Source: an uncultured Pelagibacteraceae bacterium
GTDB lineage: Bacteria > Pseudomonadota > Alphaproteobacteria > Pelagibacterales > Pelagibacteraceae
Reading direction: 5' to 3'
Assembly (NCBI GenBank): GCA_902636165.1
Contig: CACPQV010000002.1
Span: 1-51,863 of the forward strand
DNA: 51,863 nt
Positions 31,867 through 35,167 of the stretch are shown one piece after another; position 1 is the first letter of the stretch; each line of letters starts with the position of its first letter. The notes under the pieces are model-generated. The model was not told the origin of the DNA. It saw nothing but the letters and a program-made list of their open reading frames with translations, and made no database searches. The position numbers were made by a program, and so were the translations under genes.

Positions 31867-32274
31867 ATGAATAAAATGCACAAAGAACATAATCTCACCA
31901 AAAATCAGAAAATTATTTTTGATTTAATTGATAAATCACCTCAGCCACTTAAGGCCTACTCAATACTCTATAATGTTCAAAAAAAAGGTATTAAAGCTCC
32001 TCTGCAAGTTTATCGAGCATTAGATAAGTTAGTTGAAATAGGTAAGATTCATAAAATTGAAAGTAGAAATGCCTTTATTGCATGTCATAATTCAAGTTGT
32101 CAGGTGGCTAAAGCTACTGCGTTTTCAATCTGTGAGATTTGTGAAAAAGTAACAGAAATAAGTAGCGCAGGTCTTTCCAAATACTTAGCTAACTTCAAAG
32201 ACAAAGATGGTATGAAATACAGTAAATATAATCTTGAGTTTTTTGGTTTATGCAAAAAATGCACACTTAAATAA
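31867..32274 (+). CDS. zur: Fur-family transcriptional regulator (Zur)
   Basis: Fur fold with two CxxC motifs (CEIC, CKKC); co-oriented immediately after znuB. Confidence 0.9.
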   Translation: MNKMHKEHNLTKNQKIIFDLIDKSPQPLKAYSILYNVQKKGIKAPLQVYRALDKLVEIGKIHKIESRNAFIACHNSSCQVAKATAFSICEICEKVTEISSAGLSKYLANFKDKDGMKYSKYNLEFFGLCKKCTLK

Positions 32275-32939: not shown

Positions 32940-33371
32940 ATGAAGAATATTTTGTTTGTATGCACAGGTAATTCAGCAAGAAGTATTATTGCTGAAAGTA
33001 TAATAAATAACGAGTATGACGATAAGTATAAAGGTTTTAGTGCTGGGAGTAATCCAACAGGAAAAATTAATGAGGATGTGAAGAATTATTTGTTATCAAA
33101 ACATTATGATCTTTCAAATTATAGATCTAAAAATTTTAATGAGTTTATTAATGGTCAAATTAAAATGGATTATGTGATTACAGTTTGTAATAATGCCAAT
33201 AACGAAGTCTGTCCTATTTGGCCAAATAAAGATCAGATAATTCATTGGGATATAGAGGATCCTGTTAAATTACTTGATGAAACAAACGACTTAAATAAAA
33301 AAGATGAAATAATAGAAAAAGTTTACAATAATATTCATAAAAGAATAAAGGAACTGCTTTATGAAAAATAA
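32940..33371 (+). CDS. arsC: Arsenate reductase / low-molecular-weight phosphatase family (ArsC)
   Basis: NILFVCTGNSARSIIAESI P-loop; VITVCNNANNEVCPIWP; IHWDIEDPVK. Confidence 0.9.
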   Translation: MKNILFVCTGNSARSIIAESIINNEYDDKYKGFSAGSNPTGKINEDVKNYLLSKHYDLSNYRSKNFNEFINGQIKMDYVITVCNNANNEVCPIWPNKDQIIHWDIEDPVKLLDETNDLNKKDEIIEKVYNNIHKRIKELLYEK

Positions 33372-34011
33372 AAGCCGCTATTTTCTTGCTGAATTATTAG
33401 GCAGTTGTTTTTTAGTAATGATTATTGTTGGTTCAGGTTTAATGGCTGAAAACCTTACAAATGATAATGCTTTAAGATTAACAGCTAATACACTTGCAAC
33501 TGGAGCTGGTCTATTCGTTTTAATAACTGCTTTTGCAAATATTTCAGGTGCACATTTCAATCCTTTTGTAAGTTTAGCGATGTTTTTAAGAAAAAAAATC
33601 ACTGGAAAACTTCTGATTATATATATCCCTGCCCAAATACTTGGTTGTTTGCTTGGTGTTATGTTGGCTAATGTTTTTTTTGAACACAATATTCTTGAGT
33701 TATCAACAAAAAATAGGGATGGCTTTCATATTTTCTTGTCTGAAATAATTGCTACTTTTGGTTTAATTTTTATTATTTTTGCTACTCTAAAAGATGGCAA
33801 AATAACAATAGCTGCAAGTGTAGCAACATATATCATGGCTGGTTATTGGTTCACATCATCAACATCTTTTGCAAATCCAGCTGTTGCTATAGCTAGAACT
33901 TTTACTGATTCTTTTACAGGAATTAATTATTTGAATACGCCTACATATATTTTAGCTGAATTTTTGGGAGCTCTAATAGCTGTATATTTTATTAAGAAAT
34001 TAATTAAATAA
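33361..34011 (+). CDS. MIP/aquaporin family channel (AqpS-like)
   Basis: GAHFNPFVSLAMFLR (first box NPF) and SFANPAVAIARTFTDSFTGI (second NPA box); 11-bp overlap with arsC. Confidence 0.9.
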   Translation: MKNKSRYFLAELLGSCFLVMIIVGSGLMAENLTNDNALRLTANTLATGAGLFVLITAFANISGAHFNPFVSLAMFLRKKITGKLLIIYIPAQILGCLLGVMLANVFFEHNILELSTKNRDGFHIFLSEIIATFGLIFIIFATLKDGKITIAASVATYIMAGYWFTSSTSFANPAVAIARTFTDSFTGINYLNTPTYILAEFLGALIAVYFIKKLIK

Positions 34012-34201
34012 ATACAACTTTATTGAGAAAAAAAAATATTTAAAAGTAGACATCAATATTTAATAGTTTATTAGTTAACGAATCTCCCCCTGATTCTAAT
34101 ATTATTTTATTCTTTTATAGAATAATCTTTATTCTCACATTACATACATCTTAAGTCATGAATCGATAGGAACCGAAAACAATAATATAAAGGAGATAAA
34201 A

Positions 34202-35167
34202 ATGGATATGACTTTAATTTACACGGTTATAGGGTTTGCCCTTGCCGGTTATAGCGTAATCGCTAACGACTCAATTCAAACACTAGGTACATTTATAGCT
34301 TCAAAAAAGAAGTGGTTTAAATGGTATACTCTTGCAGGATCTGCATCTGCTGTTATGATTATTGCGTTAGCATGGGGATGGTATACGTATAATGGTGATA
34401 TTTCTTATGGAAGATTAACTAGAATACCTTATCAAGAAATTCAATGGTATCACGCAGTAGCGCCTGCAATACTGTTATTATTAACAAGAATTGGAATACC
34501 AGTTTCAACTACCTTTTTAGTTCTTTCAGCATTTGCCTCAACGGTTGTGCTTGAAAAAATGCTCATGAAAAGCGTCGTTGGTTATGGTTTAGCAGCAATG
34601 GTTGCTTATATTGCCTGGATAGCTGTCTCTAAATTCATCAATGAAAAATTTGATGAAGTAGATGAAAAATGGGTAGGCTTCTGGAGAAATAGTGTTTGGA
34701 TTTCCTCTGGTTGGTTATGGTGGGTGTGGCTGTCTCACGACGTGGCTAATATTGCTGTGTATCTACCTAGACAATTAGATTTAACATTGCTTTTAATAGT
34801 AATGGGTTACTTTACAGCACTGTTATTCTATATTTTCTACATTCAAGGTGGACCAATTCAAAAAGTTGTTCTTGAAAAAACAGGAACAAGGTACGCAAGA
34901 TCAGCGACAATTATTAATATAATTTATGCTGGTGTATTATTTTACTTTAAAGAACTAAACGATTTACCTATGTCTACTACATGGGTTTTTGTTGGTTTAT
35001 TATGTGGAAGAGAACTTGCTATAGCTACCATGAACAAAGAATATAAGTTAGGTTATGTCTTTCCATTAATTGGAAAAGATTTCTTAAAAATGGTATTCGG
35101 ATTAACTGTCTCAGTGGGTATAGTGCTTGCGATACATTACATAATAATACCGAATAGCTGGTTTTAA
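34202..35167 (+). CDS. Divergent PiT-like inorganic-ion transporter homologue (function unknown)
   Basis: Multi-TM protein with two internal PiT-like half-motifs: IANDSIQTLGTFIASK and GIPVSTTFLVLSAFAS (half 1); LSHDVANIAVYLPR and DLPMSTTWVFVGLLCGRELA (half 2). Strong Shine-Dalgarno AAAGGAGATAAAAATG. Confidence 0.75.
   Translation: MDMTLIYTVIGFALAGYSVIANDSIQTLGTFIASKKKWFKWYTLAGSASAVMIIALAWGWYTYNGDISYGRLTRIPYQEIQWYHAVAPAILLLLTRIGIPVSTTFLVLSAFASTVVLEKMLMKSVVGYGLAAMVAYIAWIAVSKFINEKFDEVDEKWVGFWRNSVWISSGWLWWVWLSHDVANIAVYLPRQLDLTLLLIVMGYFTALLFYIFYIQGGPIQKVVLEKTGTRYARSATIINIIYAGVLFYFKELNDLPMSTTWVFVGLLCGRELAIATMNKEYKLGYVFPLIGKDFLKMVFGLTVSVGIVLAIHYIIIPNSWF

Follow-up and report, generated by a model that had tools for sequence, protein, structure and literature searches.

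A divergent PiT-type transporter, probably for phosphate, in SAR11 bacteria and uncultured marine phages

Life in the surface ocean is limited by the supply of phosphate, where SAR11 bacteria rank with the most abundant organisms. According to a recent report, 55% of offshore SAR11 genomes possess pstSCAB-phoU-phoB-phoR and the remainder appear to rely solely on pitA (PMC12636525). An LMWPc-type ArsC and the aquaporin AqpS are described in another study as an arsenic module of the SAR11 ecotype 1a.3 (PMC6426599). In the GCA002718135 family, a Pit gene lies inside a phosphate island in two genomes (PMC10734472, the available text of which does not state whether the subfamily considered here or a canonical PiT is meant). 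A connection with viruses was suggested by a Pacific metagenome clone in which a pho4 ORF placed near HIMB59 adjoins a phage-like ORF (Monier et al., 2012; PMC3429862). As for the protein itself, the residues of PiT2 that are critical to phosphate transport are D28, E55, S113, D506, E575, S593 and H502 (PMC3126765).

The window analysed here, that is, the whole stretch of 51,863 nucleotides from contig CACPQV010000002.1 (assembly GCA_902636165.1), comes from an uncultured Pelagibacteraceae bacterium represented by a 661-kb assembly that is 55% complete. A sequence-only reading had singled out in it an orphan, strongly divergent PiT-fold transporter with degenerate motifs. The ORF in question (34202-35167) is uninterrupted and is a SAR11 (Pelagibacteraceae) gene, and both the ORF and the quoted motifs are present as described, IANDSIQTLGT spanning residues 20-30 and LSHDVANIAVYLPR residues 177-190 (Table 1).

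Table 1. Features of the transporter gene and its upstream neighbourhood, in window coordinates
Feature	Position	Strand	Remarks
zur, Fur-like regulator	31867..32274	+	name from place after znuCB only
arsC, LMWPc-type arsenate reductase (predicted)	32940..33371	+	Pfam LMWPc 6.5e-19; pair in PMC6426599
aquaporin, AqpS-like	33361..34011	+	Pfam MIP 2.5e-28; pair in PMC6426599
conserved leader AAGTCATGAATCGATAGGAACCGAAAACAATAATAT and ribosome-binding site AAAGGAG	34153..34201	+	12-sequence alignment; just 5' of the PiT start
divergent PiT-type phosphate transporter (predicted)	34202..35167	+	ATG ORF, 321 aa
first signature N-D-S-I-Q-T-L-G-T	34265..34291	+	residues 22-30; replaces canonical GANDVANA core
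first P-V-S-T-T	34499..34513	+	residues 100-104; P100-T103 invariant (62 members)
second signature H-D-V-A-N	34736..34750	+	residues 179-183; His instead of canonical Asn
second P-M-S-T-T	34967..34981	+	residues 256-260; all five invariant (62 members)

The divergence from PiT is indeed strong: the signatures are altered, and against Pfam PHO4 (PF01384) the window protein scores 10.1 bits (E 0.37), far under the gathering cut-off of 33.7 bits. Its relatives, when tested singly, reach 17.8-25.7 bits, and PHO4 is matched by 12 of the 13 members in one set and by 42 of 62 in another (best E 2.2e-9). The Pfam cut-off is a curator's convenience and not a biological feature; standard family models miss this protein, so that surveys based on the cut-off under-count it. 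Comparison with alphaproteobacterial PHO4 proteins by hhalign yields alignments with E 2.9e-6 over 295 columns, covering both repeats, and, in a second comparison, E 5.5e-5 over 250 columns; in both, the two motif sets are in register with canonical PiT. Searching the PDB directly, whether by sequence or by profile, produced no match. The fold comparison rests on an AlphaFold (AF2) model obtained from a 62-row alignment (pLDDT 80.2, pTM 0.78), a single-sequence model with pLDDT 42 having been discarded. At E<0.001, the only PDB matches of this model are 6l85_B (2.9e-4) and 6l85_A (5.2e-4), with prob 1.00, that is, TmPiT, the sodium-dependent phosphate transporter of Thermotoga. The TM-scores are moderate (0.62-0.66, rmsd 7.7-9.2), so the domain arrangement may differ or the model may represent another state. 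The sequence-only reading had named the lack of a structural match to PiT as the result that would count against it; the match to TmPiT favours PiT, and the homology and fold are backed by profiles, profile-profile comparison and the model alike. Judging from these data, the protein is a divergent, functional-looking PiT (PF01384-like), and we consider it highly probable that the gene encodes an inner-membrane phosphate transporter with the PiT (SLC20/PHO4) fold, belonging to a divergent marine alphaproteobacterial and phage subfamily.

The internal duplication that had been read from the sequence is supported indirectly. The spacing of the motif pairs is nearly equal in the two halves (78 residues in the first and 77 in the second), the matches to PHO4 cross over (in some family members the first half aligns with its C-terminal half, and in the window protein the second half aligns with its N-terminal half), and the model match to TmPiT points the same way; yet by profile comparison the halves are unlike each other, their similarity (E 0.064) falling inside the shuffled range.

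Residue conservation was read from 62 aligned family members that are 52-99% identical to the window protein. The invariant residues are N22, D23, Q26, P100, V101, S102 and T103 in the first half, where residue 104, the fifth of the first P-V-S-T-T, is either S or T, and H179, D180, A182, N183, P256, M257, S258, T259 and T260 in the second. This invariance indicates that the motifs are not a chance occurrence. The GANDVANA core is altered, with N-D retained in the first signature and D-x-A-N in the second, and the His that replaces Asn in the second signature is itself invariant among the 62 members. Furthermore, D23, S102, D180 and S258, which correspond to D28, S113, D506 and S593 of human PiT2, are all invariant in the same set. 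The positions equivalent to E55 and H502 vary, and the equivalent of E575 may be D/N239; in the hhalign alignments, the Glu at the E55 and E575 places is also missing in some alphaproteobacterial PHO4 proteins. The motifs are thus changed from the canonical form, as had been noted, but because the His of the second signature is invariant and the Asp and Ser residues are kept, "altered but conserved" is a better description than "degenerate".

Nor can the gene be called an orphan, given 289 genome matches and at least 544 matches on viral contigs. The best 80 relatives in the genome collection all come from Pelagibacteraceae and are 93-99% identical. The gene was detected in 37 of the 147 sampled SAR11 genomes (7 of the 53 near-complete ones) and in 41 of the 114 genomes of one other alphaproteobacterial order (around G237); a sample of 385 genomes from the class Alphaproteobacteria gave strong matches in about 8, and a 349-genome sample of the phylum contained only three weak matches besides the window's own genome. 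We found no experimentally characterised member of the subfamily.

So what does this transporter carry? One clue comes from the Pst system. A search for pstA in the same 147 SAR11 genomes, with "clear" defined as E<1e-40, shows that this gene is absent from most near-complete carriers of the divergent PiT: of the 53 near-complete genomes, 42 of the 46 non-carriers have a clear pstA, vs 1 of the 7 carriers (Fisher p 6e-5, with kinship ignored; common descent may exaggerate the association). Among all SAR11 carriers, mostly incomplete genomes, pstA is found in 6 of 37. The PF02690 Na/Pi cotransporter, a conceivable substitute, is absent from all nine pst-less genomes searched. Four near-complete SAR11 genomes (G481, G489, G507 and G523) lack a clear pstA, the divergent PiT, a listed PHO4 match and PF02690. 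No association with pstA is seen in the order around G237 (9 of 41 carriers vs 11 of 73 non-carriers, p 0.44), where few carriers of the divergent PiT also have a canonical one (2 of 41 vs 17 of 73 non-carriers, p 0.016).

The genomic location of the gene adds to this picture. In five of the six SAR11 carriers with pstA (G406, G386, G437, G442 and G467), the PiT gene adjoins, in divergent orientation, a phoR-pstS-pstC-pstA-pstB-phoU-phoB operon, the domains of which were verified in L280 (G442) and identified in the other four from their agreement in gene order and in the starts of the sequences. In the sixth, G398, the PiT gene stands at the end of its contig, and a different contig carries the pst operon, followed by arsC and the aquaporin. 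In a sister genome, G430 (L286; 75% complete), zur and PiT are adjacent at the same place, the pst operon being missing from between them. In the window, the arsC-aquaporin pair stands where other genomes have the pst operon. A search of the window for Pho boxes gave 2 matches vs 3.6 expected, none near the PiT gene. Of the 147 SAR11 genomes, only 9 have a canonical PHO4 match that passes the cut-off and, for this reason, the SAR11 pitA of PMC12636525 is very probably the same gene as the divergent PiT; the trade-off with Pst in SAR11 is therefore already known from that report.

In many SAR11 lineages that lack Pst, phosphate import appears to fall to the divergent PiT. If it works as characterised PiT proteins do, it would import phosphate by cation symport, with some arsenate unavoidably entering too, and transport would involve the two inverted repeats through their paired N-D and P-x-S-T motifs. 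Many SAR11 lineages without the high-affinity PstSCAB would be supplied with phosphate in this way, and in other lineages the divergent PiT may work alongside Pst encoded at the same locus. We infer the substrate, the coupling ion, the affinity and the cooperation with the arsenic genes.

The PiT family includes a sulfate permease, CysP of B. subtilis, and the protein could in principle be a PiT-fold transporter mainly for another oxyanion, such as sulfate, or for a metal-phosphate complex. The replacement of V-A-N by S-I-Q in the first signature and of Asn by His in the second would agree with such a role, zinc-uptake-type genes are also found in the window locus, and the SAR11 pitA is termed, in PMC12636525, a permease of "phosphate or sulfur". 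Nevertheless, we regard this as unlikely in view of the linkage to the pst-pho operon, the absence of pstA from most SAR11 carriers, and the invariance of the Asp and Ser residues that are critical for phosphate. The suggestion of the sequence-only reading that the substrate may not be ordinary phosphate runs against the first two of these observations, and the changes in the signatures give no indication of a different substrate. A non-phosphate substrate was accordingly set aside on gene linkage.

Phosphate import would also explain the company that the gene keeps. The gene order in the window is znuACB-zur, a small ORF with no Pfam match, arsC, aquaporin and PiT; arsC and the aquaporin gene overlap by 11 bases and a gap of 190 bp separates the latter from PiT, 3' of which are genes for an Fe/Mn superoxide dismutase, manC, ilvD and valS (these names and those of znuACB-zur are read from the sequence). 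In related genomes, zur is the anchor of a variable SAR11 locus, located either beyond pst-PiT or directly beside PiT. Among the SAR11 loci of the best 80 relatives, the aquaporin gene usually, and arsC often, lies upstream of the PiT gene, so that the association is frequent and inconstant. Arsenate enters cells through phosphate carriers, and the association is accordingly best read as protection from incoming arsenate; the adjoining arsC-aquaporin pair would clear the arsenate that enters with phosphate. The link to the arsenic genes proposed at the outset is therefore real in SAR11 and fits arsenate as a phosphate analogue, but the neighbours are optional. A stronger version, under which the PiT-like protein is a dedicated part of an arsenic module together with arsC and the aquaporin, for example an arsenate carrier for which phosphate is incidental, could draw on the arsC and/or aquaporin genes that adjoin the PiT gene in most SAR11 loci. 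It is very improbable, however, considering that the aquaporin gene is absent beside PiT in L031, L032, L039 and L063, that several other SAR11 genomes have pst there instead, that inspection by eye revealed no ars genes next to the relatives in other alphaproteobacteria, that the phage copies sit among replication genes, and that no physiological need for arsenate import is known.

Two further features of these loci deserve mention. A 73-codon ORF (MF[IL]KKYLKWIST..LV.GILLTNLN; L053 4534-4755, L022 4516-4737, and others) overlaps the arsC start or precedes the aquaporin gene, and is absent at the corresponding place in the window. In L002 (2585-5159) and L007 (2589-5159), the zur side is separated from the aquaporin gene by an insert with ORFs of 480 aa, 243 aa and 73-78 aa; inserts of this kind show that the site is variable.

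The leader upstream of the PiT gene is conserved as well. Its 17-bp core, GAACCGAAAACAATAAT, is exactly preserved in 75 fetched loci and occurs as a single copy in the window. The leader is kept in Pelagibacter-type loci while the remaining intergenic region has diverged, and most of the other SAR11 genera that were checked have no recognisable counterpart upstream of the PiT gene. An Rfam search of the 29-36 kb region, leader included, found no match, and the leader showed no consistent single-sequence fold.

A scan of IMG/VR matched at least 600 stretches, at least 544 of which encode relatives of the divergent PiT; the best 80 of these are 58-66% identical to the window protein. The viral surroundings are diverse. 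On one contig (L242), the neighbours are T4-like, namely a gp43-type polymerase, UvsX, a DnaB-like helicase and a primase; elsewhere, they include a T4-like polymerase (L223), a T5-like polymerase with an NAD-dependent ligase (L211) and a virion structural protein (L168), and lysozyme and an Rz-like spanin are among the common neighbours. At least one of 16 checked neighbour families, some of which are not phage hallmarks, is present on 58 of the 85 viral contigs, and for the others the viral label rests on IMG/VR. Among these contigs (L167-L251), the divergent PiT is found in both T4-like and T5-like phages, whose replication types are unrelated; this suggests movement of the gene between phage lineages. 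Searches for the divergent PiT in 50,697 deposited phage records and in 72,556 plasmid records gave no match, PHROGs contains no family for it, the BFVD library of viral structures yielded no significant match to the model, and a literature search, largely outside subscription journals, found no report in which the subfamily is described as common among phages.

In the phylogenetic tree, the SAR11 copies form a single clade (100/99), and the SAR11 and viral copies together are separated from other alphaproteobacteria with support of 97/88 (77 rows) or 98/89 (69 rows, including 28 other alphaproteobacteria). The SAR11 clade is nested among the viral rows, with L187 the nearest (97/90), although the root is not fixed and the selection of viral rows by similarity to the SAR11 protein is a possible source of bias. 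The AU test does not reject a single clade of all viral rows (p-AU 0.132). Exchange of the gene between SAR11 and phages, in one direction or the other, appears likely. A more specific scenario, which we put forward only tentatively and regard as rather doubtful, is that SAR11 acquired the PiT gene from phages, in which it would serve as an auxiliary metabolic gene; this would have let many offshore lineages lose Pst and its control by PhoBR, the gene still being common among uncultured marine phages of the T4-like and T5-like kinds. That the gene encodes a decaying or non-transporting homologue (a relic or sensor), as the altered signatures and the score under the Pfam cut-off might hint, is extremely unlikely given the strong purifying selection among SAR11 copies (rough dN/dS 0.03-0.17), the invariant motifs over 62 members, and the fact that SAR11, other alphaproteobacteria and phages have all kept the gene over the long term.

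With at least 544 viral contigs carrying the gene, marine phages of at least two kinds may steer the phosphate uptake of their hosts, and the copies of the divergent PiT found in metagenomes are not necessarily cellular. It is this spread through uncultured marine phages that seems worth following.

How, then, does the divergent PiT relate to the systems already described? With the PiT/SLC20/PHO4 proteins, exemplified by TmPiT (6L85), it shares the model fold, the two half-repeats, the N-D and P-x-S-T-x motifs with their nearly equal spacing and the critical Asp and Ser residues; it differs in the signatures, which here read AND[SA][VI]QTLG and HD[VMIL]ANIA instead of the GANDVANA core, in its length of 321 aa, the additional central segment of longer PiT proteins being absent, and in that most members of the subfamily score under the Pfam cut-off of PHO4. 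The Pit of the GCA002718135 family (HIMB59/AEGEAN-169 order), as presented in PMC10734472, is likewise a low-affinity marine alphaproteobacterial Pit. The arsenic module of PMC6426599 involves the same two neighbour genes, arsC and the aquaporin; in the accessible portion of that paper, only two arsenic-related genes are reported and the adjoining PiT gene goes unnamed. The closest counterpart in SAR11 is the pitA of PMC12636525 (ISME J 2025), a Pit in offshore Pelagibacteraceae without pstSCAB-phoU; viruses in the context of pitA and the altered motifs, both of which figure here, go unmentioned in the available part of that report. Finally, the clone of Monier et al. (PMC3429862) resembles the viral copies in that its pho4 ORF branches near the alphaproteobacterium HIMB59 and has a phage-like neighbour, but that study had a single clone, detected by means of the PHO4 model and placed without support, whereas here a single subfamily is encoded on at least 544 viral contigs.
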